A stretch of DNA of 64,000 nt from Pseudogemmobacter bohemicus. GTDB taxonomy: Bacteria > Pseudomonadota > Alphaproteobacteria > Rhodobacterales > Rhodobacteraceae. The stretch lies in NCBI RefSeq assembly GCF_003290025.1, contig NZ_QNHG01000003.1:584460-648459 (forward strand), read 5' to 3'. A program made the position numbers and the translations under genes. Positions 2,459 to 21,912 of this stretch are shown here, piece by piece. Position 1 is the first letter of the stretch; each line of letters opens with the position of its first letter. The notes beneath the pieces are model-generated. The model was not told the origin of the DNA. It ran no database searches and saw only the letters and a program-made list of their open reading frames with translations.

Positions 2459-4090
2459 TCAGCTTACTTCCGCGCTGTGCGCATCTGCGAGGATCATGCC
2501 GGCGGCTTTCTCTGCGATCATAACTGTCGGTGAGGCAGTATTGCCCGAGACGATTTTCGGCATGACAGAAGCATCCACGATCCGCAGTCCGGCGAGTCCG
2601 TTGAACCGCAGGCGCGGATCTACGACTGCCTCAGGATCTGTCCCCATGCGGCAGGTTCCGACCGGATGGAAGATGGTCGTGGCGATATCTCCGATTGCTG
2701 CCATCAGGTCGGCGTCGCTCCCGATCGCGGGGCCGGGGAGGATTTCGGTCGGGGTGAAAGGACGCAGCGCTTCTGCGGTCATGATTCTGCGCGCCTGCCG
2801 CACCGATTTCAGCGCCACCCGGCGGTCGCCTTCGGTCGAAAGATAGTTTGGCCGGATTGCCGGCGCCCGGGCCGGATCGGTAAGATGCACGGTCCCGGTG
2901 CTTTCGGGACGAAGGTTGCAGACCGATACGGTGATCGCCGGGAAGGGATGCAGCGGATCCCCCAGCCGGTCGGTCGACAATGGCTGCACATGATATTCAA
3001 GATCCGGCATGTCGAGCGCCGGGTCCGAGCGGGTGAACATGCCAAACTGACTGGGTGCCATCGACATCGGACCTTTGCGTTGCAGCAGGTATTGCAAACC
3101 GATCCGCATCTTGCCCGTCACGCTGTTCGCGAGGGTGTTCAGGGTCTGTGCATTGCTGACGCGGTAAACAGTGCGGATCTGCAGGTGATCCTGCAAATTG
3201 GCCCCGACGCCGCGCCGTTCCAGATGCACCGGCAGGCCAAGGGGATGCAGCACATCGGGATCACCAATGCCGGATAATTCCAGCAGTCGCGGCGAATTGA
3301 TTGCCCCGGCCGAAAGAATGACTTCGCTGCGGGCCTGCGCCTCCCAGCTCTGGCCGCCGCGGGAGAACCGGACCCCGGTGACACGGCGGCCATCAAGGAC
3401 CAGCCGCTCGACATAGGCATTGCGGATCACCCGCAGGTTTGCGCGCCCAAGGGCAGGGCGCAAGAACCCCCGTGCTGTGTTCCAGCGCAGGCCACCGCTC
3501 TGATTGACTTCGAAAAAGCCGGACCCCTCGTTGTTGCCATCGTTGAAATCGGCGCGGGGCTCTATGCCGAACTCCTGTGCACCGGCCTGCACGGCTTTCA
3601 GGATCGGCCAGTGCAGGCGCTGTCTGGCAACCCGCCATTCACCACCAGCACCATGCATCTCGCTGGCCCCGGCATAGTGCCCCTCGGATTTCAGAAACAG
3701 CGGCAGCACGTCGTCCCATCCCCAGCCGATATTGCCGAGCTGGCGCCAGTGATCGTAATCAGCCGCCTGTCCGCGCATGTAGATCATGCCATTGACCGAG
3801 CTGCATCCCCCCAGCACCTTGCCGCGCGGATAGGTCAGCGCCCGGCCATTCAGCCCTGGTTCCGGTTCGGTTTTCATCATCCAGTCGGTGCGGGGATTGC
3901 CGATGCAGTAAAGATAGCCCACCGGGATGCGCACCCAATGGTAATTGTCTGAGCCGCCCGCCTCGATCAGCAAGACGCGGGTTCGTGGGTTCACACTCAA
4001 CCGATTGGCCAGAACGCAGCCCGCCGTCCCTGCGCCAACGATGATGTAATCGTAATCCCCGTCGATCTGCACAGTTGCGGGATTGCTCAT
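2459..4090 (-). CDS. GMC-family FAD-dependent alcohol dehydrogenase
   Basis: This 543-residue protein has the full GMC architecture. The N-terminal FAD-binding GAGTAG motif is at residues 19-24, GMC signature 1 is around GGCSSVNGMIYMRG, and signature 2 is NSPRLLELSGIGDP. The C-terminal HPVGTCRMG and GNTASPT blocks carry the catalytic His and Asn. Family members oxidise primary alcohols or sugars (choline, sorbose, polyols), passing electrons to quinone or oxygen. It resembles choline dehydrogenase most, but no bet genes adjoin it. It is the last gene of the nine-gene operon and its ATG overlaps the kinase stop by four bases (4087-4090). The context points to oxidation of the imported sugar or polyol. 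Confidence 0.85.
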   Translation of the reverse strand: MSNPATVQIDGDYDYIIVGAGTAGCVLANRLSVNPRTRVLLIEAGGSDNYHWVRIPVGYLYCIGNPRTDWMMKTEPEPGLNGRALTYPRGKVLGGCSSVNGMIYMRGQAADYDHWRQLGNIGWGWDDVLPLFLKSEGHYAGASEMHGAGGEWRVARQRLHWPILKAVQAGAQEFGIEPRADFNDGNNEGSGFFEVNQSGGLRWNTARGFLRPALGRANLRVIRNAYVERLVLDGRRVTGVRFSRGGQSWEAQARSEVILSAGAINSPRLLELSGIGDPDVLHPLGLPVHLERRGVGANLQDHLQIRTVYRVSNAQTLNTLANSVTGKMRIGLQYLLQRKGPMSMAPSQFGMFTRSDPALDMPDLEYHVQPLSTDRLGDPLHPFPAITVSVCNLRPESTGTVHLTDPARAPAIRPNYLSTEGDRRVALKSVRQARRIMTAEALRPFTPTEILPGPAIGSDADLMAAIGDIATTIFHPVGTCRMGTDPEAVVDPRLRFNGLAGLRIVDASVMPKIVSGNTASPTVMIAEKAAGMILADAHSAEVS

Positions 4091-5616
4091 GGTGCGTCTC
4101 CCGACAGCTGGCCCCGGGCTGGTGGGGTGGCCTGCCAGAAGCCATGCATCCGTTCGCTCAGATCCAGAAAACGGGCGTATCTTTCATTGTAGAATTCCAC
4201 CTGTTTGGGGTCTGGCAGATAGGTTCGGGCCACCGATGTCATCGCCATACGACCGGCCTCGTAATCGGCAAAGAGCCCGACACCCACAGCCGCGCCAATT
4301 GCTGCCCCAAGGGCGCCGGTTTCGCGCGCCGTCGCAACGCTTATCGGCAAATTCAGCCCATCGGCAAACATCTGCGGCCAGACCGGGCTGCGCGATCCCC
4401 CACCTGACAGTGTCGCGTTTTCCAGCGGCAGACCCGCTGCGCGCAGCACGCCGATATGGCGACGATGCTCGAACATCACCCCCTCAAAGAGGGCGCGCAG
4501 GAGATGGCCTTCACCATGCCAGCCGGCCACACCATAAAAGCCCGCGCGAAATTCTGCGCCCTGGCCCGAACCATAAAGATAGGGGTGGAAGAATGGATCA
4601 TCCCAGGCGGGGTTCACGGATGCGACCCTGTCATTGCAAAAGCCGAAAGGATCTTCGTGATGGCCGCCGCGCTCGACAAATCCGCGCACATACCATTCGA
4701 GATTGGCGGCGGAGGTGGCACTGGATTCGATGTTCACGAAACGCTCCGGGCCAAAGCCGGAGACCATGAATACATCCGGGTGAGTGGCCGGGGCTTCGGA
4801 GAAGACCTGATTGATCCCCCAGGTGCCCGCGATGATCGAGGCTGAGCCAGGCGCCACGCTGCCCGATCCCATCGCACTGGCGATCACGTCGAAATAGCCA
4901 CCGATCACCGGTGTTCCTGCCGCGAGGCCGGTTTGCTCTGCCGCTGTCCCGGTGACATGGCCCGCGATCTCTGCCGGATCCACCAGACGTGGCAACTTCG
5001 CGAAGGCGTCCTCCAGCCCGTAAAGTGCCATCAGCCCGCGATCATAGACACAATCGGGCATCCGCAGGAGCCCCGCGCCGGACATGTCGGATATATCGCC
5101 CGTCCTCTCGCCGGTCAGGCGGAAATTGATGAAATCCTTGCTCATGCAAAGTGTCGCGGCGCGGGCATAAATCTCCGGTCGGTGCCGCTTTACCCAGGCC
5201 AGCAGCATCGGTGTCTGTGCCGGCCAGGGCTTTTGCAGGCACAGGGCATGCAGGGCATCGTCCTGTGGCGCAAATTCGGCCGCCATCGCTGCCGCCCGGG
5301 TGTCGAGCGACTGGATGCCCAGCAGTGGCGCCCCGGCGGCATCCGTCAGATAAAGGCCATTCCCATGCCCGGCGCAGCCGATGGCGGCAATCTGGCGCGG
5401 GTCTGTCCCGGACTGTTTCAGGCAGTCGCGGATCACCTGCCGGGCATTGGACCACAACTCGTCCAGATCGCGCTCGACAAAACCGGGGGCAGGCTGCGAG
5501 GACTGGCCGTCCATCGCGCTCATGGCAATCTGACGCCCTGTCAGATCGAAGAGCACAGCCTTGATGACGGTATTGCCCGCATCAAGGCCAAGAAGATAAA
5601 CCGGCGCATCAGCCAT
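4087..5616 (-). CDS. FGGY-family carbohydrate kinase, LyxK/xylulokinase-like
   Basis: The 509-residue protein begins GLDAGNTVIKA (the FGGY phosphate-1 motif) and has GHGNGLYL, DFINFRLTGE, GGYFD with the predicted catalytic Asp, and GGGSRSPVWPQM near the C-terminus. By eye its spacing and several blocks resemble the L-xylulose kinase LyxK more than glycerol kinase. It should phosphorylate a ketose or polyol in the cytoplasm. ATG 5616 is chosen because it overlaps the aldolase stop by eight bases; an upstream in-frame start at 5646 would add ten unconserved residues. Its place between the aldolase and GMC genes suggests that it supplies the phosphorylated substrate for the aldolase. Confidence 0.85.
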   Translation of the reverse strand: MADAPVYLLGLDAGNTVIKAVLFDLTGRQIAMSAMDGQSSQPAPGFVERDLDELWSNARQVIRDCLKQSGTDPRQIAAIGCAGHGNGLYLTDAAGAPLLGIQSLDTRAAAMAAEFAPQDDALHALCLQKPWPAQTPMLLAWVKRHRPEIYARAATLCMSKDFINFRLTGERTGDISDMSGAGLLRMPDCVYDRGLMALYGLEDAFAKLPRLVDPAEIAGHVTGTAAEQTGLAAGTPVIGGYFDVIASAMGSGSVAPGSASIIAGTWGINQVFSEAPATHPDVFMVSGFGPERFVNIESSATSAANLEWYVRGFVERGGHHEDPFGFCNDRVASVNPAWDDPFFHPYLYGSGQGAEFRAGFYGVAGWHGEGHLLRALFEGVMFEHRRHIGVLRAAGLPLENATLSGGGSRSPVWPQMFADGLNLPISVATARETGALGAAIGAAVGVGLFADYEAGRMAMTSVARTYLPDPKQVEFYNERYARFLDLSERMHGFWQATPPARGQLSGDAP

Positions 5617-6451
5617 TGTTGTAAACGTCCCATGCTGCCTGACCATCGGCGCCCTGATGGATGATCGCCATCAGCGCCGAGACCACGGCTTTCGGATTGG
5701 CATGCTGATAGATGTTGCGACCGTAGACCATGCCATGCGCGCCCTGAGCGATCAGCCGGGCGGATTTTTCCAGAACGATCCTCAGATCCTCCTTGCCGCC
5801 GCCGCGCACCAGAACCGGCACACGGGCGGTCTCAACAACCTTGTGGAAATCCTCGGGATCGTCGGTCGGATCAGCCTTGATGATATCCGCCCCCATTTCC
5901 GAGGCAAGCCGCACCAGCGTGATGATCTTTTCTGCGTCACCGTCGACCTGATAGCCACCGCGCACCGAATTGGGCAGCATGACCAGCGGCTCGATCATCA
6001 GCGGCATGCCATAGCGCGAACAGGCGGCGCGGACGCGGCTGATATTTTCCACACATTGCCGGAACAGCTCCGGTTCATCCGGCAGCATGAAAAGGTTCAC
6101 GACCACGCAGGCCGCATCCATTTCCAGCGCGCCGATGATCGGCTCATCGGCATTTTGCAGCATTGACCACATGACCCGGTGACGGATGGCATTATAGGGA
6201 TTGCCCATGTCGATGCGCATCACCAGCGCGGGCTTGTCCTTCTCGGGTCTGGATTGCAGCAGATCGGCCTGACCATAAGCCATCTGGATCGCATCGGGCC
6301 GGGCACCGATCAGCGTGTCGACCACGCGGGGCATATTCTCCAGCCCGACCAGAAAACCCGGCTCGTTGCAAACGCCGTGGTCCAGAGCCACGTCAAGGCA
6401 TTTGCCGTTGGTAAACATCCGGTTCATCCGGGCCTTGGGGCTAAGCCGCAT
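5609..6451 (-). CDS. class I DhnA/LsrF-type aldolase
   Basis: The 280-residue protein shows the FbaB/LsrF/LacD-type aldolase pattern. VALDHG lies near the N-terminus, GADIIKADP carries the likely Schiff-base Lys, PVLVRGGGK is the phosphate-binding loop, and GAHGMVYGRNIYQ is C-terminal. The family cleaves phosphorylated sugars or, for LsrF, performs a thiolase-type step on phosphorylated AI-2. ATG 6451 lies behind an AAGAAGGAAA ribosome-binding site and overlaps the end of the GlpD-like gene by 11 bases. Upstream in-frame starts (6469, 6520) are less likely. The context suggests it cleaves the product of the neighbouring FGGY kinase. Confidence 0.8.
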   Translation of the reverse strand: MRLSPKARMNRMFTNGKCLDVALDHGVCNEPGFLVGLENMPRVVDTLIGARPDAIQMAYGQADLLQSRPEKDKPALVMRIDMGNPYNAIRHRVMWSMLQNADEPIIGALEMDAACVVVNLFMLPDEPELFRQCVENISRVRAACSRYGMPLMIEPLVMLPNSVRGGYQVDGDAEKIITLVRLASEMGADIIKADPTDDPEDFHKVVETARVPVLVRGGGKEDLRIVLEKSARLIAQGAHGMVYGRNIYQHANPKAVVSALMAIIHQGADGQAAWDVYNNG

Positions 6452-8165
6452 GGTGATTTCCTTCTTCATTTCGGTTTTCAAGGGTTTCGGGGGAAACGCC
6501 GTGCCAAAGGGCAAGCTCACTGGTCAGCGCGTCAGTTTCGGCCTGGATGCGAGCGGCATCCCAGGACAAAACGCGGGCGATGCTTTCGGCGGCAGCGGTA
6601 ATGGTCGCGGCATTGAGGCGTCCGGTGATCGCGAGATCACTGCGGCGCAGGATCAGATCGGTCAGATGCTCAACTTGCTCCCGCGCGGCGATCCAGGCGA
6701 TCTCTGCTCCGGTCAGGGGGCAGCCTGGGGTGAGCGGAAGGTCGTCGCTGCGCGTACCGGCAAAGTGCAGAAACGCGCGGGCCGTGCTGCCATAGATTGT
6801 GGCGAGGCGCGAGGCGCGTTCAGCCGGAATGCCAAACTCATCGCGCAACTGCTGTGCCAGCGGGCCTGCACCGGGAAAATCGCGCCCGCCACCGATAGCC
6901 AGATTTTGGGTTGAGCAGAGCCTTTGACGGCCAAGCTCGATAAGAGCCGCATCGCAGACCTGTTCGGCGAAGGCGCGGAAGGTGGTCCATTTTCCGCCGA
7001 CCATGCATATCTGCGGCACCGGCCCGTCAATCCGGTGCTGGAAATGCCCGCGCGATATGCGACCGGTGAAATCCTGATCGCTTGCAGGCAGCGGGCGAAT
7101 ACCACTATAGCTGAACAGGACCTGTTCGGGCGTCACCTCAAGCCCTGGAAAGGTCAGGCGCAGCGATTGCAGAATATAATCCATTTCCTCTGTCTCGCAG
7201 CGGGTGCGACCGGCGTGATCGACACGGATATCGGTGGATCCCGCCAGCACACAGCCCAGATAGGGAAAGGTGACGCAGACGCGCCCATCGGTATTCTCGA
7301 AAAACACCATATGCCCGTCCAGCGCCTGAAAAAGCGCGGGATTGTCGAGGATGAGATGCGAGCCCTTGGTGCCCGAGACGAGGCGTTTGCTGCTTTCCTG
7401 CCCGGAAAGCTGTGAGATGGTTTCGTCAAGCCAGGCACCGGTCGCATTCACCAGCAGATCCGCTGTGACCAGCGCTGTCCGGCCATGCTCGCGGTCGCAT
7501 AGGTGGAAGGCGCGGTCCTCGGGGCGAAGCTCTGCGTAATTCAGCGCCACAGAGGCCGGGCTTGCCGCCTTTGTGTCGGCGATCAGCTCAATCGCCAGCC
7601 GCTCGGGATGCGAAATCCAGGCGTCGTGATAAGTCGCCGTCCAGCGCGCCCGGGGCGAAAGTGCGGGCCAGCGCTGCCGGGTTTCTTGTTGGGAATGAAA
7701 GCTGTGAACGGGCAGCAGCCGCCCCTTGCGGGTGATCAGATCGTAAAGCATCAGGCCAATGCGGATGGGAACGATGCCGCGCGGCCTGGGTTGCCGTTTC
7801 AGGCCCAGAAAGCTGAAAGCAGCATTGAAAATGCCGTTGAAACGCGAGGCAATCGGCACTGTGGTCGGCAATGGACGCACCAGATGCGGCGCATTGCGTA
7901 AAAGATTGTCCCGCTCCCGGAGCGACTCCTTCACCAGGCTGAACTCGCCATTTTCCAGATAGCGCAGGCCGCCATGGATCATCCGCGACGGCGCCGCACT
8001 GCAGCCCGAGCAAAAATCATCACGCTCCACCAGCAGAACCCGCAGGCCCTGGAGTGCAAGCTCGCGATAAACGCCGATGCCGTTGATCCCGCCCCCGATG
8101 ACGATCACATCGAAATGGCTGTCGGCTTTGATGCTGTCGAACTGTTCTGCGCGAAGTGAGGACAT
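6441..8165 (-). CDS. GlpD/EryB-like FAD-dependent polyol-phosphate dehydrogenase
   Basis: This 574-residue protein has the FAD dinucleotide motif GGGINGIG near residue 23, then SRMIHGGLRYLE and the long GlpD-type body with VNATGAW, GSTDIRVDH and SYSGIRPLP. A C-terminal helical domain starts near residue 420. The family oxidises sn-glycerol-3-phosphate, or erythritol phosphate in EryB, at the membrane with quinone. Glycerol use seems unlikely here because the kinase is LyxK-like and an aldolase is present. ATG 8165 is preferred, preceded by CGGAAACGTC; ATG 8189 is possible. It follows the aldo/keto reductase by 59 bases. Confidence 0.8.
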   Translation of the reverse strand: MSSLRAEQFDSIKADSHFDVIVIGGGINGIGVYRELALQGLRVLLVERDDFCSGCSAAPSRMIHGGLRYLENGEFSLVKESLRERDNLLRNAPHLVRPLPTTVPIASRFNGIFNAAFSFLGLKRQPRPRGIVPIRIGLMLYDLITRKGRLLPVHSFHSQQETRQRWPALSPRARWTATYHDAWISHPERLAIELIADTKAASPASVALNYAELRPEDRAFHLCDREHGRTALVTADLLVNATGAWLDETISQLSGQESSKRLVSGTKGSHLILDNPALFQALDGHMVFFENTDGRVCVTFPYLGCVLAGSTDIRVDHAGRTRCETEEMDYILQSLRLTFPGLEVTPEQVLFSYSGIRPLPASDQDFTGRISRGHFQHRIDGPVPQICMVGGKWTTFRAFAEQVCDAALIELGRQRLCSTQNLAIGGGRDFPGAGPLAQQLRDEFGIPAERASRLATIYGSTARAFLHFAGTRSDDLPLTPGCPLTGAEIAWIAAREQVEHLTDLILRRSDLAITGRLNAATITAAAESIARVLSWDAARIQAETDALTSELALWHGVSPETLENRNEEGNHHAA

Positions 8166-8224
8166 GACGTTTCCGTTCACCGGGGACATGCCCCGGCGTT
8201 GGTTCGGTGGAAGGGGTGTTTGGC

Positions 8225-9220
8225 TCAGCCGTCGAGGTCGGTCAGGTGCAGGGCGGCTGCGCGGTTCATCAGGGCAATCTCGTCAGCGGTCAGGCGCAGC
8301 CGGCCGGCAGCCGCATTCTCGCGCGCCTGATCGGGATTGCGCGCGCCGCAAAGCGAGAAGGTGATGCCAGGCTGTTGCAGCGTCCAGGCGATCACCACCT
8401 GGGCAAGACTGGCCTCATGCGCTGCGGCAACCGGGCCGAGCTCTGCCATGAGAGCCGCTACTTTGCGGCGATTTTCCTGCGAGAAACGCGGATTGTCCTT
8501 TCTCTGATCATCGCCGGAGAACACCCGGTCCGGCCCGATCCGCCCCCCCAGAAGCCCGAGCGCCAGCGAAGAATAGCTCAGCACCGAGACCCCTTCCTCG
8601 CGGCATTCAGGCAGCAGCGATGCCTCAATATCGCGCCGGACCATGCTGTACTCCTCCTGGACGGCATCCAGCTGACCCGCCGTGACATAGGCCCTGACAT
8701 CGGCCACCGAAGTATTGCTGGCCCCGATCGAGCGGATCTTGCCCATCCGCTTCAGATCTTCCAGCGCTGCCATCGTCTCGCCGATGGGGGTCGTCGGATC
8801 CTGCCAGTGGGTGATGTAATGGTCGATGTAATCGGTCTGCAGACGGCGCAGGCTTTCGTCGATCTCGTAGAAAACAGCGTCACGTCCCAGATAGCGGTGT
8901 ACGGGCGTTCCGTCATAGTCAAAGAAATGATTGCCCTTCTGCACATGCCAGACCAGCCCGCATTTGGTGGCCAGCACCACCTTGTCGCGGCGGCCCCGGA
9001 TCGCCTCGCCGACGATTTCCTCGGCCAGGCCCTGGCCATAGGCCGGGGCGGTGTCGATCAGGCTGACACCCTCATCTATCGAGGCCTGGATGGCGGCGAT
9101 AGACTGTGCGCGGTCGGTTCCGCCCCACATCCAGCCACCGATGGCCCAGGTGCCCAGACCGATGGCCGAGGCCTGGATTTCTGATCGCCCGATATTTCGT
9201 TGCAGCATTTCATGCGACAT
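8225..9220 (-). CDS. aldo/keto reductase
   Basis: The 331-residue protein is a typical TIM-barrel aldo/keto reductase. The catalytic tetrad residues are visible as Asp56 and Tyr61 (IDTAPAYG), Lys86 (LATKCG) and a His in YITHWQDP. The C-terminal region has the NADP(H)-binding type arrangement. It should interconvert an aldehyde or ketose and an alcohol in the cytoplasm. ATG 9220 is chosen because GGAAGG lies eight bases upstream; it overlaps the end of the SorC gene by 11 bases. GTG 9229 is an alternative. It is probably the NAD(P)H-linked redox step of the operon's pathway. Confidence 0.85.
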   Translation of the reverse strand: MSHEMLQRNIGRSEIQASAIGLGTWAIGGWMWGGTDRAQSIAAIQASIDEGVSLIDTAPAYGQGLAEEIVGEAIRGRRDKVVLATKCGLVWHVQKGNHFFDYDGTPVHRYLGRDAVFYEIDESLRRLQTDYIDHYITHWQDPTTPIGETMAALEDLKRMGKIRSIGASNTSVADVRAYVTAGQLDAVQEEYSMVRRDIEASLLPECREEGVSVLSYSSLALGLLGGRIGPDRVFSGDDQRKDNPRFSQENRRKVAALMAELGPVAAAHEASLAQVVIAWTLQQPGITFSLCGARNPDQARENAAAGRLRLTADEIALMNRAAALHLTDLDG

Positions 9221-10190
9221 GTCGCGCACCTTCCAGTCCTGAGATTACCGCTTCCACTGTGCGTTCATCCGTTACCAGCGAATTCAGAAAACCACCGCGC
9301 AAAACAGCACGGATCGGGTCTGCCTTATGGAGCCCGGAGGCCACCCCGATCACATTGCGGCATGCGGCCAGCTCGTCGGGTTGCAATGCCACCAGCCGTC
9401 CGTTCAGCGGGAAATCGGCCACCCGGCCATTCTGCCCGATCAGAAAAGCCATGAACTCCGCGGCGATCCCCAGATTGACCAGCAACTTGCCATCCGCCTC
9501 GGTCAGCGGTGCGAGGTCGTAATAGCTTGATCCGCGCGGCTCGATTGATCCGATGCCGGCCATCACCACATTCGCATGGCGTGCGATTTCAAAGACATCG
9601 CGGATCGGAGTCATTTCGCGCAGCATGTCACGCTGTGCGCGGTTCTCGGCCATCAGCGGCGCATGGATCAGCATCGCCCTGCCGCCCAGCCGCTCTGCCA
9701 TCCGGGTCACCAGGTGGTTGACATCCGTATAGTATTTTCCCTGTACACCGCCAGTCAGCGGCACCACCGTCACATTCATTGGCCGGTCAACCGAGAGGTT
9801 GTCGACAACCGCGCTGATCGCCTTGCCGCCGGTGATGGCGATCACATCGCCGTCGCGCAGTGATTCCACCAGCAGATTTGCCGCAGCACTTCCCACCTGC
9901 TGCAACTGAGTGTCGGATTTCTCAGACAGGGTAGGGGTGACAATGGCAGAGCGCAGGGTGGTCGCCCCGACCAGCCGGGTCTCAAGCTCAGCCAGCCGCT
10001 GAAAGGGGCTGCTGATGGTGATCTGCAGCATCCCCGCCCGCCGTCCCTGGGCAATCAGCCGGTTCACTTTCGAGGTCGAGAGATTCAGCCGGTCCGCGAT
10101 TTCAGACTGACGCAACCCTTCGATGAAATGCAGGAGAAGGACGATCTGGATCTGACGCGCGAGCGCGAAATCCATTGAAATATCTGCCAT
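9210..10190 (-). CDS. SorC/DeoR-type sugar-responsive transcriptional regulator
   Basis: The 326-residue protein has an N-terminal helix-turn-helix (QSEIADRLNLSTSKVNRLI, about residues 27-45). A SorC sugar-binding domain follows with DVIAITGGKAI, VVPLTGG and GIGSIEPR. This family includes LsrR, EryD and DeoR-like repressors that bind phosphorylated sugars. The open frame extends much further upstream, to 10910, but that part is only the shadow of the permease; ATG 10190 with GGGGGGGAAT upstream is the credible start. Because it lies inside the operon it likely controls, autoregulation is expected, with the phosphorylated substrate from the FGGY kinase as the natural inducer. Confidence 0.85.
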   Translation of the reverse strand: MADISMDFALARQIQIVLLLHFIEGLRQSEIADRLNLSTSKVNRLIAQGRRAGMLQITISSPFQRLAELETRLVGATTLRSAIVTPTLSEKSDTQLQQVGSAAANLLVESLRDGDVIAITGGKAISAVVDNLSVDRPMNVTVVPLTGGVQGKYYTDVNHLVTRMAERLGGRAMLIHAPLMAENRAQRDMLREMTPIRDVFEIARHANVVMAGIGSIEPRGSSYYDLAPLTEADGKLLVNLGIAAEFMAFLIGQNGRVADFPLNGRLVALQPDELAACRNVIGVASGLHKADPIRAVLRGGFLNSLVTDERTVEAVISGLEGARHVA

Positions 10191-10201
10191 ATTCCCCCCC
10201 T

Positions 10202-11197
10202 CTACTTGCGCTTTTTGTTCAGGTAGTGATCGACCGTCACCGCAGTCAGCAGGATAGAACCACGGATAATGTCCTGCCAGTAAACCGAGACATCCATCAA
10301 CGCGAGCGAGCTGGACACAAGCGACAGCAGGACACAGCCGAGGATCGCCCCGAAGATGGTGCCTGATCCGCCCTTCAGGCTGGCTCCGCCGATCACGGCG
10401 GCGGCGATCACGTTCAGCTCCATCCCCAGACCGAATGTCGGCTGGGCGGAACCGAACCGCGCCATGTAGATCACCCCGGCCACCCCGGCCAACGCCGAGC
10501 ACAGCGTCGTGGTCAGGAAGATCACCTTGCCGGTGCGGATGCCGGAATAGGCGGCAGCGCGCTCGTTCGAGCCGGTATAGAAGACGCGGCGGAACAGGGT
10601 GGAGCGGCGGAGCAGGAAATCCGCGATGACCACAACGACGAGGAAGATGATGATCACCACCGGGATCGGGCCGACAGATCCCTGACCGATGAATTTGAAG
10701 CTTTCCGGCAGAGCAAAAAGGCCAAGCGGCCTCCCGCCTGTCGCCAGCAGGCAGATCCCGCGCGCGATGACCATCACCGCCAGCGACACGATGAAATGAT
10801 GCAGGCCCACCCGGGTGACGAAAAAGCCCATGATCGCCCCGACCCCGGTGCAGGCCGCAATCGCGATCAATGATGCGAGCCAGGGATCGACCCCGTTCAG
10901 AAACAGCCATCCCCCGATCACCATGGCAAGCGCGGTGACAGAGCCCACTGAAAGGTCGATCCCGCCAGAGATCAGGAGGATGGTCATGCCGACCACAACG
11001 ATGCCCTCAACCGCGAAGGCCATCACCATGGCGCGAATATTCACCCAGGTGAGAAAATAGGGAGAGGCAAAGGTCATCACCACGCAAAGCACGAGAATGA
11101 TCGCGATCAGCCCCGCTTCGCGCATCCTGAACAGCCGGGCGATACGCCCAGGTGTGGCTTTGCCGTCATTCGCATTATTTGCCAGTGTCTGTTCCAA
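10202..11197 (-). CDS. ribose-type sugar ABC transporter permease (RbsC family)
   Basis: A 331-residue integral membrane protein with eight to ten hydrophobic segments and the family motif GGIDLSVGSV. A second conserved loop contains GSNERAAAYSGIRTGK, and the C-terminus is polar. The start is inferred to be TTG at 11197 because GAGGAGG sits eight bases upstream, after the ATPase stop. The ATG at 11239 would lie inside the ATPase gene. It forms the transmembrane channel, probably as a homodimer, with the ATPase and binding protein encoded upstream. It is followed 11 bases later by the SorC regulator. Confidence 0.87.
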   Translation of the reverse strand: MEQTLANNANDGKATPGRIARLFRMREAGLIAIILVLCVVMTFASPYFLTWVNIRAMVMAFAVEGIVVVGMTILLISGGIDLSVGSVTALAMVIGGWLFLNGVDPWLASLIAIAACTGVGAIMGFFVTRVGLHHFIVSLAVMVIARGICLLATGGRPLGLFALPESFKFIGQGSVGPIPVVIIIFLVVVVIADFLLRRSTLFRRVFYTGSNERAAAYSGIRTGKVIFLTTTLCSALAGVAGVIYMARFGSAQPTFGLGMELNVIAAAVIGGASLKGGSGTIFGAILGCVLLSLVSSSLALMDVSVYWQDIIRGSILLTAVTVDHYLNKKRK

Positions 11198-11210
11198 GCC
11201 TGTCTCCTCC

Positions 11211-12734
11211 TCAAGCGACCTGCCCGCGTTCGTCCCCAACCGAGGCGAGCCGCATGATGTTTTCTTCGGTCATGGCGGTGCCTTCGACCTCGCCGCTGAG
11301 CCTGCCCTCGCGGATCACCACCGCCCGGTCGCAAAGCCCGATCAGTTCCGGCATTTCCGACGAGATGACGATGATCCCCACGCCATCATTGGCCAGGTCG
11401 CGCAGAATACGGTGGATTTCAGCCTTTGCGCCGACATCCACCCCGCGTGTGGGCTCATCCAGAATGATCACCCGGGGATTGACCGACAGCATTTTGGCGA
11501 TCGCCACTTTCTGCTGATTGCCCCCCGAAAGCGACGAGACCGGGTCCACCAGCTGACCGCATTTCAGATTGAGCCTTTGCCCCAGATCGGCGGCCTGGCG
11601 CATCTCACGTGCGTCGCTGATCAGCCCGGCAGGCCCTGCAACGCGGCGGATATCCAGTGCCGAGACATTCGCGGCGATGGACATATCAAGAAAAACGCCG
11701 TCGCCCTTCCTGTCCTCGGACAGATAGACGATCCCGGCGGCGATGCTGTCCTGATAATCGCGCGGGGTAAGCTGCTCACCATTGAGCCGTATCTCGCCGG
11801 TGACGACCGGTTGCAGACGGCAGATGCCGCGCGCGATCTCGCTGCGCCCGGCGCCAATCAGCCCGCCGATCCCCAAAATCTCGCCCCGGCGCAAGGTGAG
11901 GCTGATATCGTGGAACCGGCGCCCGTCTCCGAGGCCGCTGACCTCCAGCACGGGCGCGCCTGCCAGGGTTCCTGCGGTGGCCTTGGGTGGATAAAGCTGA
12001 TCCATGACCCGCCCGACCATCGCATTGATCACGTCATCGGGCGTGATTTCGCGCGTCTCGAAAGTGGTGATGTACTGGCCATCGCGAAACACGGTCACCC
12101 GGTCGCAATTTCCGAAAATCTCCGCCATCCGGTGCGAGATATAGATGATGGCAATCCCACGGGCCGCGAGACCACGCATGATGCCGAACAGCACCTCGGC
12201 CTCGCGACTGGTCAGGGCGGCGGTCGGCTCGTCCAGGATCAGCACTTTGCAATCAAGCGTCAGCGCCTTGGCAATCTCGACCAGCTGCTGTGCCGAGATC
12301 GGCAGATCCCCGGCAAGGGTCGCGGGATCAATATCGCTCATCTGGCCCAGCACCTGCCGCGCCCGCGTCTCCAGCGCGCGATAATTCATAAACATGGATT
12401 GGCTGGCATTCGTGGCCATCATGAAGATGTTTTCGGCCACCGAGATATCGGGGCAAAGCGCAATCTCCTGATGCACGAGCCCGATCCCCAGCCTTTGTGC
12501 CGCGAGGGGCGAGGGGATGCGAACAGGGCACCCCTCCCACAGGATTTCGCCGCTGTCTGGTTGCAGGATGCCATTGATTATGTTCATCAATGTTGATTTT
12601 CCGGCCCCGTTCTCGCCGGCGAGCGCGTGAATCTCGCCCCGGCGCAGGGAGAGGTTGACGCCCTGCAGCGCGCGAACCGGACCGAAGGCCCTGGTCACGT
12701 TCCTGACCTCAAGAATGGGTTCGTTCTGTGTCAT
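11211..12734 (-). CDS. ribose-type sugar ABC transporter ATPase, two-domain (RbsA family)
   Basis: The 507-residue protein contains two tandem ABC domains. The first has Walker [10 protein letters not shown] and the DEPTAALT Walker B region. The second has a degenerate P-loop region ([10 protein letters not shown]) with the intact signature LSGGNQQKV and DEPTRGVD. This asymmetry is normal for RbsA/MglA/AraG. It powers the RbsC-type permease. It begins 71 bases after the binding-protein stop, a gap that contains GC-rich inverted repeats, and ends 13 bases before the TTG start of the permease. Confidence 0.88.
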
Positions 12735-12754
12735 GGGGGATCCGGAAATACAGG

Positions 12755-12792
12755 GAGATGGGGTGCCCCACCCCCCTGGAGGGGCTGGGGCA
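12755..12792 (-). other. GC-rich intercistronic stem-loop after the binding-protein gene
   Basis: The 71-base gap between the binding-protein stop and the ATPase start holds GGGGTGCCCC and CCCCTGGAGGGG inverted repeats. There is no T-run, so full termination is not expected. In importer operons such hairpins commonly stabilise the upstream binding-protein mRNA or cause partial termination, giving more binding protein than ATPase. That role is inferred here. Confidence 0.4.
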
Positions 12793-12805
12793 GGTCCGTG
12801 TCAGA

Positions 12806-13825
12806 TCAGGTGGGATCGCGCCCTTCCATATAGACATTCAGATCAAAGCTGTCGGCATTCTCCTTGGTGATGACCGAAAAGCCATTGTCGAGATAGGGGA
12901 TCTGCACCGGGTTGAATCCCGAGACCTTGTAGTCGTTGAACGGGTCGAAGACTTCGGAATGCTTGGCCAGGAACACTGCCATGAATCCCATGAACCCCTG
13001 CATCCCCTGATTGGGGTTGAGCGCCATGTGGATATTGCCGGCCTTGATATGCTCCAGCGTAGCGGGGGTGATGTCCGCCTGCATGATCAGCACATCTGCC
13101 TTCGCCTCCAGCACTGCCGTCACCGCCCCTTCGGCCGAGCCCGCTTCGGGGATCCAGATCGCCTTCAGGTTCGGATTGGCCTGCAGGATCGCCGCTGTGG
13201 CCCGATAGGCCGCAGTGGTGTCCTGGTTGGTGGCCTGACGTCCCACCAGCTTCATATTCGGATAGTGCTGCTCAAAATAGCTGATCAGTGCAGTGACACG
13301 CAGGTCATGGTTGGACTGGCCCGGGTTTTCCAGCACCGCATATTCTGCGCTGTCCCCCACCTGTTTCACGATCTCTTCGGCGGCGAACTTCGCCTCAGCC
13401 AGATTGTCTGAGGTGATATAGGCCGTGCGTTTCGACATCGGGCTGTCGGCGGCAAAGGTGGCGACCTGAATACCGCTGTCGATGGCGCGGTTGATCGGTT
13501 CAATGAAAGGATCGGATTGCATCGGGTGCAACAGGATGCCCGCTGGTTGCTTCACCAGATCCTGGTCGAACGACGCGATCTGCTTCGTGATGTCATAATC
13601 AGGGGTGCCGGAGAAGACAGTCTCGCAACCGAAGGCTTCCGCCGCCTGTTTGAAGCCCTGATAGACTGGAACCCAATAGGGATGTGATGAGACCATCACA
13701 TTCATAATATAGGTTTCGCCAGGTTCGCAGCGCAGGGTATCCTGTGCCTGGACAGCGGTTCCCTGCAGAAGGCAAGCCGCAACCGCTGCCGGAGCGATGC
13801 GCCCGGCCCAATTCTTCTGTTTCAT
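12806..13825 (-). CDS. periplasmic sugar-binding protein of the RbsB family
   Basis: The 339-residue precursor has a classic signal peptide with likely cleavage after AVQA (residue 26 or so). A two-lobed type I periplasmic-binding domain follows, with MVSSHPYWVPVYQGF in the first lobe and AIWIPEAGSAEGA near the hinge. It has several cysteines but no lipobox. The start is ATG 13825 behind GGGAGGAAAT. It is the first gene of the nine-gene operon and sets the substrate. By eye it does not carry the AI-2-contacting pattern of LsrB, so a sugar or polyol is the best guess. Confidence 0.86.
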   Translation of the reverse strand: MKQKNWAGRIAPAAVAACLLQGTAVQAQDTLRCEPGETYIMNVMVSSHPYWVPVYQGFKQAAEAFGCETVFSGTPDYDITKQIASFDQDLVKQPAGILLHPMQSDPFIEPINRAIDSGIQVATFAADSPMSKRTAYITSDNLAEAKFAAEEIVKQVGDSAEYAVLENPGQSNHDLRVTALISYFEQHYPNMKLVGRQATNQDTTAAYRATAAILQANPNLKAIWIPEAGSAEGAVTAVLEAKADVLIMQADITPATLEHIKAGNIHMALNPNQGMQGFMGFMAVFLAKHSEVFDPFNDYKVSGFNPVQIPYLDNGFSVITKENADSFDLNVYMEGRDPT

Positions 13826-13966: not shown

Positions 13967-13998
13967 GGGACTTATCCCTTATGTTGAAATTTATTTCA
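13967..13998. promoter_or_regulatory. candidate SorC operator: two adjacent palindromes upstream of the importer operon
   Basis: Two inverted repeats lie 142-173 bases upstream of the first operon gene. One is GGGA-CTTA-TCCC at 13967-13978. The other is TGAAAT-TT-ATTTCA at 13985-13998. A further TGAAAT half-site is at 13961 and GAAATTTCA lies at 13895-13903, closer to the gene. The local sequence is much AT-richer than its surroundings. The placement fits a regulator binding site, and the SorC protein encoded in the operon is the natural candidate. A -35-like TTGACG on the minus strand (13953-13958) is present but no convincing -10 follows. Confidence 0.4.
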
Positions 13999-17787: not shown

Positions 17788-18876
17788 TCACTCTTTCCAT
17801 ATGATCGTATCGTCGATTGCCGCAAGGTTTTTGCAGCCGGTCAGGGCCATCGCGACCTCCAGCTCGGCGCGCAGGATGGTCAGCATATGCGCGACGCCCC
17901 GTGCGCCGCCGGTGGCCAGCGCATGGAGTTGCGGGCGACCGAGCATCACCGCATCCGCGCCAAGCGCAAGGGCTTTCAGAACATCGCTGCCCCGGCGGAT
18001 GCCGCCGTCACAAAGGATCGGCAACCGGCCTGCAAGCGCCTCCGCGATGCGCGGCAGCAGGTCTGCGCTGGCGGGCATCGTGTCAAGCGCGCGGCCGCCA
18101 TGGTTCGAGACGACAAGGCCGTCCACCCCGTGCTCCAGCGCAAGAAGCGCGTCGCCAGGGGTGGAAATGCCCTTCACGATCAGCGGCAGCCTCGTGCGGG
18201 CGCGCAGCCAGGCGATGTCTTCCCAGCGGGGCTGGCTGTCGAGAAGGCCAAGAAACGCAGGGCTGCGGCCCGGCTCTGCCCGGATCTCTGGCCCGGCCAT
18301 GCCGGCGGTGTTGATGGCGGAGACGTCCTCGGGCAGGCGAAAGCCGATCCGCGCCTCGGTATTGCGCAGCTTTACCGGCGCATCGACGGTGACCATGATG
18401 GCGCGGAAGCCTGCGGCCTCGGCACGATCAGCCAGGGCCGCACTGTCTTCGCGCCGCGCCTGCATATAGAGCTGGAACCACAGCGCCCCTTGCGCGCCCC
18501 CGGCCACCTCTTCGATCCGCGTCGAGGCGAGCGTCGAGACCGTCATCACCGTGCCGGTCGCCGCCGCGCCAAGCGCGGTCTCGGCCTCGCCGCGCGGATG
18601 GGCGAGATGGTGATAGGCGACGGGGGCGAGGATCAGCGGATGCGCCAGCGCCTGACCGAACAAACTCAGCCCGGTCGAGGCGCCACGCATATCCGCCAGG
18701 ACCCTGCCTTGCAGACGGATGCGGGACCAGGCGGCAAGGTTATCCGCATGGGTGATGCCATCTGCCGCGCCGCCATCCAGCCAGGCCGAGACCATTTGCG
18801 GCAGGCGATCCCGCGCCACCCGTTCGTAATCGCACAGCGCCACCACATCGGAGGGGATCTCATAAGCCTCTGACAA
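17788..18876 (-). CDS. FMN-dependent alpha-hydroxy-acid oxidase/dehydrogenase
   Basis: This 362-residue TIM-barrel protein belongs to the lactate oxidase/glycolate oxidase/LldD family. PVAYHHLAHPRGE lies early, Lys235 is in LIVKGI, SNHGGR carries catalytic His259, and ILCDGGIRRGSDVLKALALGA is followed by the FMN phosphate site. It oxidises an L-2-hydroxy acid to the keto acid. It starts three bases after the piuC stop, so the two are surely co-transcribed. Partnership with an iron-regulated hydroxylase is unusual, and its substrate is not evident. Confidence 0.85.
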   Translation of the reverse strand: MSEAYEIPSDVVALCDYERVARDRLPQMVSAWLDGGAADGITHADNLAAWSRIRLQGRVLADMRGASTGLSLFGQALAHPLILAPVAYHHLAHPRGEAETALGAAATGTVMTVSTLASTRIEEVAGGAQGALWFQLYMQARREDSAALADRAEAAGFRAIMVTVDAPVKLRNTEARIGFRLPEDVSAINTAGMAGPEIRAEPGRSPAFLGLLDSQPRWEDIAWLRARTRLPLIVKGISTPGDALLALEHGVDGLVVSNHGGRALDTMPASADLLPRIAEALAGRLPILCDGGIRRGSDVLKALALGADAVMLGRPQLHALATGGARGVAHMLTILRAELEVAMALTGCKNLAAIDDTIIWKE

Positions 18877-18879
18877 CGC

Positions 18880-19563
18880 TCAGATCTCCGCCCAGTGGCG
18901 GATCATATTGTGGTAATGCGCCGTCAGCCCCGTCACTGCCGGATCATCATCGGGCAGGAGCGTGCGGATACGCATGATCGACTGGTCGAGATCATAGAGC
19001 ATATGGCGCTGCCAGTCGTCGCGAACCATTGACTGCGCCCAGAAGAACGACGCCCAGCGGGAGCCGCGCGTCACCGGTGTCACCGAATGCAGCGAGGTGG
19101 CGGGATAGACCACAGCATGGCCCGCCGGCAGCTTCACCTTATGCTCACCATAGGTGTCGTGAACGACCAGCTCGCCGCCGTCATACTCCTCGGGGGGGGT
19201 CAGGAAGATCGTGGTCGAAACATCGGTGCGGATGCGCTGGCCGGTGCCGGGGATCACCCGGATCGAGCCATCGACATGGGCGCCGAAGGTCATCCCCTCA
19301 TCATAGCGGTTGAACATTGGCGGCAGCAGATGCAGCGGCAGTGCGGCCGAGGAATAGATCGGGTTGCGGCCAAGCGCCCGCGCGACGATCTGCGCCAGCT
19401 CGCGGCCGACCTGGCTGTCGGGGGGGACCTGGAGGTTTTTTTTCACCTGGGCGGCCTGATCGCCGGCGGTGCTGCGGCCATCGACCCAGTCCGTGCCCTC
19501 CAGGACCTGGCGGATATAGGCGACTTCTTCCGGCGTCAGAAGATCTGGAATGGTGACAAGCAT
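18880..19563 (-). CDS. piuC: PiuC/YbiX-type Fe(II)- and 2-oxoglutarate-dependent dioxygenase
   Basis: The 227-residue protein matches the PKHD-type hydroxylase family. Iron ligands are His96 and Asp98 (GAHVDGSI) and His159 (LHSVTP), and Arg169 (GSRWASFFW) is positioned to bind 2-oxoglutarate. In other bacteria piuC lies beside a TonB siderophore receptor and is induced by iron limitation, as here. ATG 19563 gives the usual length; the open frame extends 29 residues upstream without conservation. It lies between the receptor's terminator and the hydroxyacid oxidase gene, so it probably has its own promoter or depends on read-through. Confidence 0.87.
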   Translation of the reverse strand: MLVTIPDLLTPEEVAYIRQVLEGTDWVDGRSTAGDQAAQVKKNLQVPPDSQVGRELAQIVARALGRNPIYSSAALPLHLLPPMFNRYDEGMTFGAHVDGSIRVIPGTGQRIRTDVSTTIFLTPPEEYDGGELVVHDTYGEHKVKLPAGHAVVYPATSLHSVTPVTRGSRWASFFWAQSMVRDDWQRHMLYDLDQSIMRIRTLLPDDDPAVTGLTAHYHNMIRHWAEI

Positions 19564-19651
19564 TTGCGGCTCCGTCCTGAACCTGGTGAGGATAACCCGG
19601 CGACCGGGAAAAGTTAAGAATTTCCGTCGGGAAATATCCGGATGCGGCATG

Positions 19652-19676
19652 AAAAAAGGGCGGCATTTCGCCGCCC
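19652..19676 (-). terminator. Rho-independent terminator after the siderophore receptor gene
   Basis: GGGCGGC-ATTTC-GCCGCCC at 19658-19676 is bordered by AAAAAA on its plus-strand left side, so the minus-strand transcript gets a seven-pair stem followed by six U residues. It lies 38 bases past the receptor stop and 89 bases before the piuC start. Confidence 0.8.
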
Positions 19677-19713
19677 CTTCGCGTCAGATGGTCCGAGCCT
19701 CAGAATCTGAGCC

Positions 19714-21912
19714 TCAGAACCGGTAGTCGATCTTGGCGGTGACCGACCGGCCCGGCGCGCGGTTGGCGAAAAGCCCGACATGCGAGGCGTCATAGAGGCG
19801 CTCGTCAAACAGGTTGTTCACATTGACCTGCAGCAGGGTGTTTTCGGCCACCTCGTAAGAGACCATCGCATCAAAGCGCCATTGCGACGGCAGGATCAGC
19901 GTGTTCGCCGCATCCAGCCAGCGCTTATCGGTAAAGGTCGCGCCGCCGCCGACGGTCAGCTTGTCATTGACCGCATAGGTCGACCACAGGCTGAAACTGT
20001 TCTTGGCATTGAACTGCATCTCCTTGTTATCAAGGGTGGCGGGACGACCGCCACCCTTGACGACTTCGGCATCGGTATAGGCATAGCCGAACGAGACGCC
20101 CCACTGGTCATTGATCTGACCGGCGACGCCGATCTCGATCCCCTGGGCAAGGCTTTCACCTGCAAGGGCCACACCGACGCCCGAGATCGGATCGGTCACA
20201 CGGGCGTTTTTCTTCTCGGTCCGGAAGATCGAGGCAGAGAACAGCAGACGGTTTTCGAACAGCTCCCATTTGGTGCCGAGCTCGAAGCTCTTGCTCTTTT
20301 CCGGCTCCAGATTGACGTTCGCGGCAGTCAGCGTGCAGGCGCCGGCGCCGTCAGCGCCACCCGCCATGCCCGCACATTCGCCCGAGGGGTTCGACGAGGT
20401 GCCGATGGCGAAATAGACGGTGCCGTTCTCGGCAGGCTTATAGACCAGTGCCGCCGAGTAGTTCAGCATGTTGTCTTTGCGTGTCCGGCTGGCATCTGCG
20501 ACTTCATATTTGTCGTAGCGCAGCCCCAGATCCAGCGACCATTGCGGGTCGAACTGGATGGTATCAAAGACATAAAGCGCTTTGGTCGTAGTTTCGATAG
20601 GTGCGCCCCAGCCCGTCCAGACGATGGAACCGGTCACCGGACCATAGGGATTCGGATTGATGATCGGGGTCGTCGTCACCGAAGGTGCACCGGTTGAGGT
20701 CGCCGAAGCGATCTTTTCTTTCGAATATTCGAAGCCGATTGCGAAATCATGCTTCAGCGAACCGGTCTCGAACGAGCCGTTCAGCCCGGTCTGGAAGGCC
20801 GCCGCACGGTTCTTCTTGCCACCCGACCGCAGATCGCGCACCACATTGCCGGCCGCGTTCACGGTCGGACGGGTCACCGCGTAATACTGTTCCGAACCGA
20901 TCCATGCCAGCGTCGTGTTCCAGCTGAGACTGTCGCTGAATTCATGTTCGAATTTCAGCGAGGCAGCCTGGTTCTTCACATCGCGGAAATCGCGATAGGC
21001 CGAGCCGAAGAACGCGCTGGCATCCATCACCTCGATCGGGCGGCCCGGATTGGTGGTTGTCAGGGGGCTGCCGCGCCATGCGGCGGTATCCATCGGCACG
21101 CCCAGATCCGGGATGCCGCTCGTCTCGTCATGCGAAAGGCTCAGCGAGAGTTTGCTGGCGCCGAAGCCTTTGGTGAACGAGAGCGCGATACCCTTGCGGT
21201 CATCCTCGATCACGTCGCGGCCCGGAACGCCGGAATCCTGCGCCATCAGGTTGAGACGCAGCGCCATATCCTGGCCAAGATCGAAATTGCCGTCATAGGT
21301 CAGGCGCTTGTGCTTGCCATTGCCGATGGTGGCCGAGACATGGTTGAAGCTCTCGCCCAGATGCGCCTGCTTGGTCACGAGATTGACCGAACCACCGGTC
21401 GCACCACGGCCGGAATAGGCGCCGCCGGGGCCTTTGACGACCTCGACCGATTCCACATTGAAGGATTCGCTTGAGGTGCGGCCCAGATTGCGCACGCCGT
21501 CGATCATCATATCGGTCGCAGCCTGGTAGCCCCGGATGAAGAAGCGGTCGCCCATCGGCGTGCCGCCTTCGCCCGAACCGAGCGTGACGCCCGGCGTGGT
21601 GCGCAGCACTTCGAGCACCGAGGTCGCATTGCGCTCTTCCATCTGCCGCTGGGTGACGACGGTGATGGTCTTGGGCGTGTCGACCAGCGGGCCGGTGAAC
21701 TTGTCAGAAGAGGCTTCGGTCACCGTATAGCTGTTGGCCGCCTCGCCCTGCTCGCCACCGGCATGGAGAACAACCGTGCCGAGGTTTTCGCCTTCAGCCG
21801 TGGTCTGCGCATTGGCCTCACCGGCAACGGCTGCGGAAATGGCAAGCACCGGCAACAAGCCCAGCGTTGGCATCATATGCGACTGGTTGGTCGCGGTTTT
21901 TTTCAGTGTCAT
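19714..21912 (-). CDS. TonB-dependent siderophore receptor (Fiu-like)
   Basis: The 732-residue precursor has a signal peptide (cleavage near GEANAQ). A plug domain contains VDTPKTITVVTQ, LEVLRTTPGV, GDRFFIRGY and VEVVKGPGGAYSGRGATGG. A beta-barrel follows, ending in the conserved terminal aromatic (KIDYRF). It imports ferric siderophores across the outer membrane, using TonB energy. Coupling to piuC is the classic pattern of catecholate receptors of the Fiu/PiuA type. Local AT content is higher upstream, but no convincing Fur or RirA box was found by eye. Confidence 0.9.
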   Translation of the reverse strand: MTLKKTATNQSHMMPTLGLLPVLAISAAVAGEANAQTTAEGENLGTVVLHAGGEQGEAANSYTVTEASSDKFTGPLVDTPKTITVVTQRQMEERNATSVLEVLRTTPGVTLGSGEGGTPMGDRFFIRGYQAATDMMIDGVRNLGRTSSESFNVESVEVVKGPGGAYSGRGATGGSVNLVTKQAHLGESFNHVSATIGNGKHKRLTYDGNFDLGQDMALRLNLMAQDSGVPGRDVIEDDRKGIALSFTKGFGASKLSLSLSHDETSGIPDLGVPMDTAAWRGSPLTTTNPGRPIEVMDASAFFGSAYRDFRDVKNQAASLKFEHEFSDSLSWNTTLAWIGSEQYYAVTRPTVNAAGNVVRDLRSGGKKNRAAAFQTGLNGSFETGSLKHDFAIGFEYSKEKIASATSTGAPSVTTTPIINPNPYGPVTGSIVWTGWGAPIETTTKALYVFDTIQFDPQWSLDLGLRYDKYEVADASRTRKDNMLNYSAALVYKPAENGTVYFAIGTSSNPSGECAGMAGGADGAGACTLTAANVNLEPEKSKSFELGTKWELFENRLLFSASIFRTEKKNARVTDPISGVGVALAGESLAQGIEIGVAGQINDQWGVSFGYAYTDAEVVKGGGRPATLDNKEMQFNAKNSFSLWSTYAVNDKLTVGGGATFTDKRWLDAANTLILPSQWRFDAMVSYEVAENTLLQVNVNNLFDERLYDASHVGLFANRAPGRSVTAKIDYRF

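Follow-up and report, generated by a model that had tools for sequence, protein, structure and literature searches.

Two described systems come closest to the nine-gene operon considered here. The lsr operon for uptake and processing of autoinducer-2 (AI-2) has a SorC regulator, an FGGY kinase, a DhnA-type aldolase and a CUT2 importer, and the eryABCD locus of Rhizobiales combines an FGGY kinase and a GlpD-like dehydrogenase with a SorC-type regulator and ABC import. The operon of this study was found in Pseudogemmobacter bohemicus (genome of 5,607,742 bases in 16 contigs), in a 64,000-nucleotide stretch of contig NZ_QNHG01000003.1, hereafter the window (G000:C3:584460-648459), where it runs from 13825 to 2459 on the minus strand. 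It contains all the gene types just named. It differs from lsr by a single permease, the absence of LsrG and an added GlpD-like dehydrogenase, aldo/keto reductase (AKR) and GMC oxidoreductase, and from the ery locus by its DhnA-type aldolase, AKR and GMC protein. Our data show that it is a real and conserved type of sugar/polyol catabolic operon. We put the chances at about even that it forms one SorC-controlled unit in which a kinase step leads to GlpD-type oxidation and then to aldol cleavage into dihydroxyacetone phosphate (DHAP) and an aldehyde.

In the order of transcription, the nine minus-strand genes encode a CUT2-type substrate-binding protein of 339 residues (Peripla_BP_4; 12806-13825), an importer ATPase with two ABC domains (two stretches matching Pfam ABC_tran; 11211-12734), a permease (BPD_transp_2, E 2.6e-36; 10202-11197, start TTG 11197 or ATG 11125), a SorC-family regulator (9210-10190), an AKR (PF00248, 1e-66; 8225-9220, start 9220 or 9208), a GlpD-like FAD dehydrogenase with DAO and DAO_C domains (PF01266 and PF16901; 6441-8165, start 8165 or 8189), a DhnA-type class I aldolase (PF01791, 2.1e-53; 5609-6451), an FGGY carbohydrate kinase (PF00370/PF02782; 4087-5616) and a choline-dehydrogenase-like GMC oxidoreductase (PF00732/PF05199; 2459-4090). 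All nine families proposed in the first-pass annotation were recovered, the top Pfam model of each gene reaching E 2.6e-36 or better. The regulator carries the sugar-binding domain of the SorC family (Sugar-bind PF04198, 200.1 bits for a cut-off of 27). The Peripla_BP_4 binding protein, the fused double ATPase and the BPD_transp_2 permease together constitute a CUT2 importer, and the PF01791 domain with its lysine K192 places the aldolase among the DhnA/class I (DeoC/LacD) enzymes. Many PDB relatives of the binding protein bind monosaccharides; they do not single out one ligand, and families off that list may apply too.

The extent of 2459-13825 was upheld; the binding-protein ATG at 13825 is preceded by AGGATGGGAGGAAAT, and position 2459 is the last base of the GMC stop codon. 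Gene spacing is tight. The initial statement that most of them have overlapping ends was nevertheless generous, since overlaps occur at three of the eight junctions (GMC/kinase, 4 bp; kinase/aldolase, 8 bp; aldolase/GlpD, 11 bp), or at four if the AKR starts at 9220 (11 bp overlap with SorC, against a 1 bp gap with the start at 9208). The remaining four gaps measure 11, 13, 59 and 71 bp, the 59 bp gap shrinking to 35 if GlpD begins at its upstream start and the 13 bp gap rising to 85 with the permease ATG at 11125. A scan for promoters and terminators returned 1 and 5, compared with shuffle means of 3.6 and 8.3.

Conservation was evaluated by searching 390 genomes of the same order with the aldolase (threshold E 1e-40). 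Matches were obtained in 24 of them: the source genome, 15 genomes at 81-85% identity and 8 at 51-55%. GlpD, aldolase and kinase genes are adjacent in all 15 close-match genomes, and these loci represent the same operon with some exceptions: a different, two-permease importer is present in four (L034, L037, L039 and L042), GMC is missing from L033 and reduced to a fragment in L042, and SorC is out of place in L038. In a collection of named genomes with one genome per species, 461 stretches encode a relative of the aldolase, the nearest (90%) being from Paracoccus. The best 80 were analyzed, a sample biased to close relatives because it was chosen by aldolase match. By tblastn, SorC, AKR, GlpD, aldolase and kinase were each detected in all 80 loci, GMC in 72, the permease in 70, and the binding protein and ATPase each in 69. 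All nine genes are present in 62 loci. AKR, GlpD, aldolase and kinase are ordered and close together in every locus, with SorC ahead of them in 79; the exception is L111, where SorC follows a second importer. Since order and strand of the nine genes are the same in 61 of these best loci, the arrangement is not due to chance, and both the single-operon layout and the recurrence of the nine families in order were confirmed. In Shimia abyssi/G256 (L111:20420-20839, L038), the SorC match after the second importer is cut by the end of the stretch and its usual place is empty.

Among plasmids, 193 records match the aldolase. The nine genes are found in the same order on S. meliloti 1021 pSymB and in S. 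meliloti R28 and R. etli IE4771, and on a Photobacterium plasmid every gene except GMC is present within the stretch examined. In G745, from the same phylum, importer, AKR and aldolase are kept, and an FGGY kinase (30%) and a GlpD (49%) are divergently placed. Judged by eye, the open reading frame after this GlpD resembles a GntR regulator. The G745 locus (L151) contains neither a SorC nor a GMC match, a GMC match being located elsewhere on that contig. The operon is widespread, mainly alphaproteobacterial in the genomes searched, and not peculiar to P. bohemicus.

A perfect palindrome, TGAAATTTATTTCA (13985-13998, no strand), is located 160-173 bases ahead of the binding-protein start and is the predicted SorC operator. 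It is the sole exact match in the genome and has similar sites in relatives. When the source genome was searched with TGAAATWWATTTCA, one exact match and two places with one mismatch were found, and the reversed-pattern control gave none. Upstream of the binding-protein gene in 67 related loci, TGAAATNNATTTCA is present exactly in 31, with at most one mismatch in 51 and with at most two in 66; the rest of these loci (1.17 Mb) contains three sites when one mismatch is allowed and 30 when two are. All three of the former precede the second, two-permease importer (L087, L111 and L115). This importer is encoded in 14 of the 80 loci, in four of them alongside the usual one, and in 10 of the 14 it is preceded by a site with no more than one mismatch. 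The presence of similar sites ahead of both importers suggests that both probably feed one pathway within one regulon. SorC is 45-56% identical to that of the window in the ten loci that have only the two-permease importer and 52-77% identical in those with the usual one. The exact palindrome was also observed in S. meliloti, R. etli, G728 and G508, and with one mismatch in Photobacterium. By coordinates, 13 of 15 distinct exact sites in relatives are at the operon or the second importer. The other two (G038 and G367), close to transporter-, thioredoxin- and transpeptidase-like reading frames by eye, were taken as chance. A candidate half-site is present 85-110 bases beyond the palindrome in 34 of 66 loci, 33 of them at 91-98. 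From this distribution SorC would be expected to bind the palindrome, and the operon is probably a single SorC regulon.

Residues R68, Y69, R357, R372 and K392 of GlpD are kept in all 81 sequences compared and align with R54, Y55, R317, R332 and K354 of 2qcu, which we take to be E. coli GlpD and its substrate contacts. This suggests that the GlpD-like enzyme probably oxidizes a phosphorylated substrate, after the kinase, and supports the oxidation after phosphorylation that had been proposed at first. These five residues do not tell which substrate, because the EryB copy of the ery-like locus in the same genome keeps all five and a second GlpD copy there keeps four. K192 of the aldolase, conserved in all 76 sequences, aligns with the lysine of LsrF and MJ0400, presumably the Schiff-base lysine; E154 is also conserved, its role being a guess. 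The AKR tetrad D56/Y61/K86/H138 (80/80), kinase D243 (78/78) and GMC H475 and N517 (71/71), all of which we assume to be active-site residues, are likewise invariant.

On these grounds, the CUT2 importer would bring in a small sugar or sugar alcohol and the FGGY kinase would phosphorylate it at a terminal hydroxyl. The GlpD-like flavoprotein would then oxidize the carbon next to the phosphate ester, yielding a ketose 1-phosphate and passing electrons to the quinone pool. Oxidation of a polyol 1-phosphate at C2 gives a compound of this type, on which DHAP aldolases usually act, and the DhnA-type aldolase would cleave it through a Schiff base on Lys192 into DHAP and a short aldehyde. The AKR would most likely reduce an incoming aldose to the alditol used by the kinase, or might reduce the released aldehyde, and GMC could be a near-constant accessory alcohol oxidase. 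Reaction order, intermediates and electron acceptor are what we infer; families, conserved residues, synteny and the conserved palindrome were obtained directly by computation. The complete proposal is an isomerase-free route for a rare aldose or alditol (reduction by the AKR with NADPH, terminal phosphorylation, quinone-linked GlpD oxidation and DhnA-type retro-aldol cleavage), encoded in a nearly single-operon SorC regulon with two interchangeable importers; we advance it tentatively and hold it, taken whole, to be rather doubtful.

Several observations weigh against this proposal. The placement of AKR and GMC is its weakest point and is guesswork, the usual redox directions of the two enzymes being opposite. 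Among the matches listed (for the ATPase, the best 25 of 191), none of the nine proteins reaches a curated NCBIfam equivalog cut-off. The GlpD-like protein stays under that of GlpD (NF008899, 279.3 vs 360), the kinase, with its general FGGY domains, under that of XylB (235.8 vs 380.25) and the GMC protein under that of betA (457.6 vs 732.1). Distance correlations of seven proteins over 45 loci, uncorrected for species relatedness, are moderate (0.43-0.80). Exact TGMAATWWATTTCA is present in 13 of 23 related genomes and absent from the other 10, including G745. Finally, the operon stretches of G745, G728 and G189 have no GMC, with GMC matches of 58-61% elsewhere in these genomes, so that the operon may do without GMC or rely on a copy encoded outside it.

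GMC matches at E 1e-150 or better were obtained in all 24 genomes searched, among them G745, G728, G189 and G162, the last of which retains only a GMC fragment in its operon. Among the eight loci of the 80 that lack GMC, the sequence stops no more than 240 bases from the kinase match in three and continues for 3.4-8.5 kb past it in four. Six other GMC contexts were examined; they are varied and gave no functional clue. GMC matches with one in-frame stop were seen in the operons of G360, G071 and G432, and in Alloyangia pacifica (L148:12778-13850) GMC is annotated as two pieces. Other dehydrogenases are found nearby in some loci. In 15 of the 80, a gene for an MDR alcohol dehydrogenase separates kinase and GMC; one was scanned with NCBIfam (TIGR02817, 401.6 vs 284.05), and it was taken as accessory. 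Aldehyde dehydrogenase neighbors, which form one protein cluster present in 6 of the 80 loci, were considered as an indication of which aldehyde is released and dropped, because the three of six that were scanned differ in kind (one like betaine aldehyde dehydrogenase but below cut-off, one methylmalonate-semialdehyde dehydrogenase and one betaine aldehyde dehydrogenase).

GMC could also be given a central role. It would then make the ketose, with or without re-reduction by the AKR (an epimerization), the kinase would phosphorylate it and the aldolase would cleave the ketose phosphate directly, leaving GlpD to deal only with a by-product, for example glycerol 3-phosphate or a polyol phosphate. 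The presence of GMC in the fetched stretch of 72 of 80 loci, with at least three of the eight absences being contig ends, is in line with this scheme, as is a deoxynivalenol 3-epimerase chain among the PDB relatives of the AKR. A distant clade of DhnA aldolases, 50-55% identical, points the same way: it belongs to a separate operon in L055 (9554-16773) with a GFO/IDH oxidoreductase, a D-lyxose-isomerase-family protein, a PfkB kinase and an ABC importer including a binding protein, a context that fits a ketose 1-phosphate as aldolase substrate and thereby also the cleavage step of the main proposal. L055 alone was scanned in full; L054 and L153 are similar by layout of open reading frames. Yet the Photobacterium and G745 stretches keep GlpD without GMC, even if G745 has a GMC match elsewhere, and GlpD adjoins the aldolase in 80 of 80 loci, more than would be expected for a side enzyme. 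We thus regard the GMC-centered scheme as unlikely.

Less probable still is a C4 polyol route for erythritol or threitol, in which a DHAP aldolase would replace EryC and the isomerases; neither EryC nor the isomerase families were found among the nine genes with Pfam and NCBIfam. The kinase, GlpD and SorC types are common to ery loci, and 21 of the 24 genomes with the aldolase region have no EryA match at E 1e-100 or better. But the kinase is 28% and GlpD 28-29% identical to the copies at a separate ery-like locus of the same genome, values that do not support orthology with EryA and EryB and that led us to reject identity with the ery system, in agreement with the contrast drawn in the first-pass annotation. 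Cleavage of a C4 compound would moreover release formaldehyde. Within this reading, threitol may be the substrate. A second FGGY-DeoR-GlpD set (L177:3396-7373 on contig C2; DeoR by eye) adjoins the ery-like locus, its GlpD and kinase being 62% and 65% identical to a Rhizobium ruizarguesonis pair.

Genetics of S. meliloti, which has the operon, also bears on the polyol question. In the accessible part of PMC3599248, its use of erythritol, adonitol and L-arabitol is tied to its ery locus, and strains unable to use these polyols, which we read as ery-locus mutants, are mentioned. Since strain 1021 carries the operon as well, the latter by itself probably does not support normal growth on the three compounds, unless it was uninduced. 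A polyol substrate, as suggested initially, thus stands as one option, with common polyols unlikely and an aldose reduced by the AKR fitting equally well. L-lyxose, D-arabinose, D-psicose and D-allose, all S. meliloti carbon sources in the part of PMC4207669 available (Table 2), are open candidates; xylitol is absent from that table as available.

An AI-2 operon of the lsr type is the least credible alternative and very improbable. The operon matches lsr in the types of its regulator, kinase, aldolase and CUT2 importer, and the best PDB sequence match of the kinase is an autoinducer-2 kinase, so that the parallel first noted with lsr is correct for gene types, as was the contrast drawn with it. 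The likeness is superficial, however, and lsr identity was rejected, because all seven matched Lsr models miss their cut-offs (LsrF 108.4 vs 297, LsrK 201.1 vs 528, LsrR 138.3 vs 486, LsrB 46.4 vs 384). Against the two permeases of lsr, the window operon has one permease gene (LsrC 129.6 vs 388, LsrD 100.3 vs 500).

Upstream of the operon, genes for an FMN-dependent dehydrogenase, a PKHD-type hydroxylase and a TonB-dependent receptor (17788-21912) are apparently unrelated to it.

The open-licence literature, subscription papers and supplements lying outside the search, yielded no paper on the operon and no matching pathway, as the first-pass annotation had supposed; the accessible parts of PMC3245297, PMC5507952, PMC11005471, PMC12542648, PMC8844928 and PMC5929573 contain no match. 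With 461 stretches encoding an aldolase relative and a copy in the tractable model S. meliloti, the operon represents a testable gap in carbon metabolism. If the order kinase, GlpD, aldolase is true, it would provide an isomerase-free entry into DHAP, and many genes that now carry the label glycerol-3-phosphate dehydrogenase/oxidase or class I fructose-bisphosphate aldolase could be annotated accordingly.

Compared with related clusters, the operon of S. meliloti pSymB (L146, L147) reproduces the nine genes and their order, with the exact palindrome upstream, and differs in that its proteins are 48-74% identical to those of the window; the open-licence search returned no function for it. We take its locus numbers to be SMb20496-SMb20504. 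SMb20504, presumably part of L146, is named once as a sugar-binding protein in the available part of PMC12542648. A sister cluster on a plasmid of Sagittula sp. P11 (L173:650-6947) has the order SorC-GlpD-FGGY-LsrF-class II aldolase, with AKR and GMC not annotated within the stretch shown. That SorC, GlpD, FGGY kinase and an aldolase recur together here speaks for the main proposal. Its GlpD (46-47%) and kinase (45%) resemble those of the window, whereas its true LsrF (499.9 vs 297) and class II aldolase set it apart. With LsrF beside a GlpD-like enzyme, this cluster combines features of lsr and ery in an unusual way.
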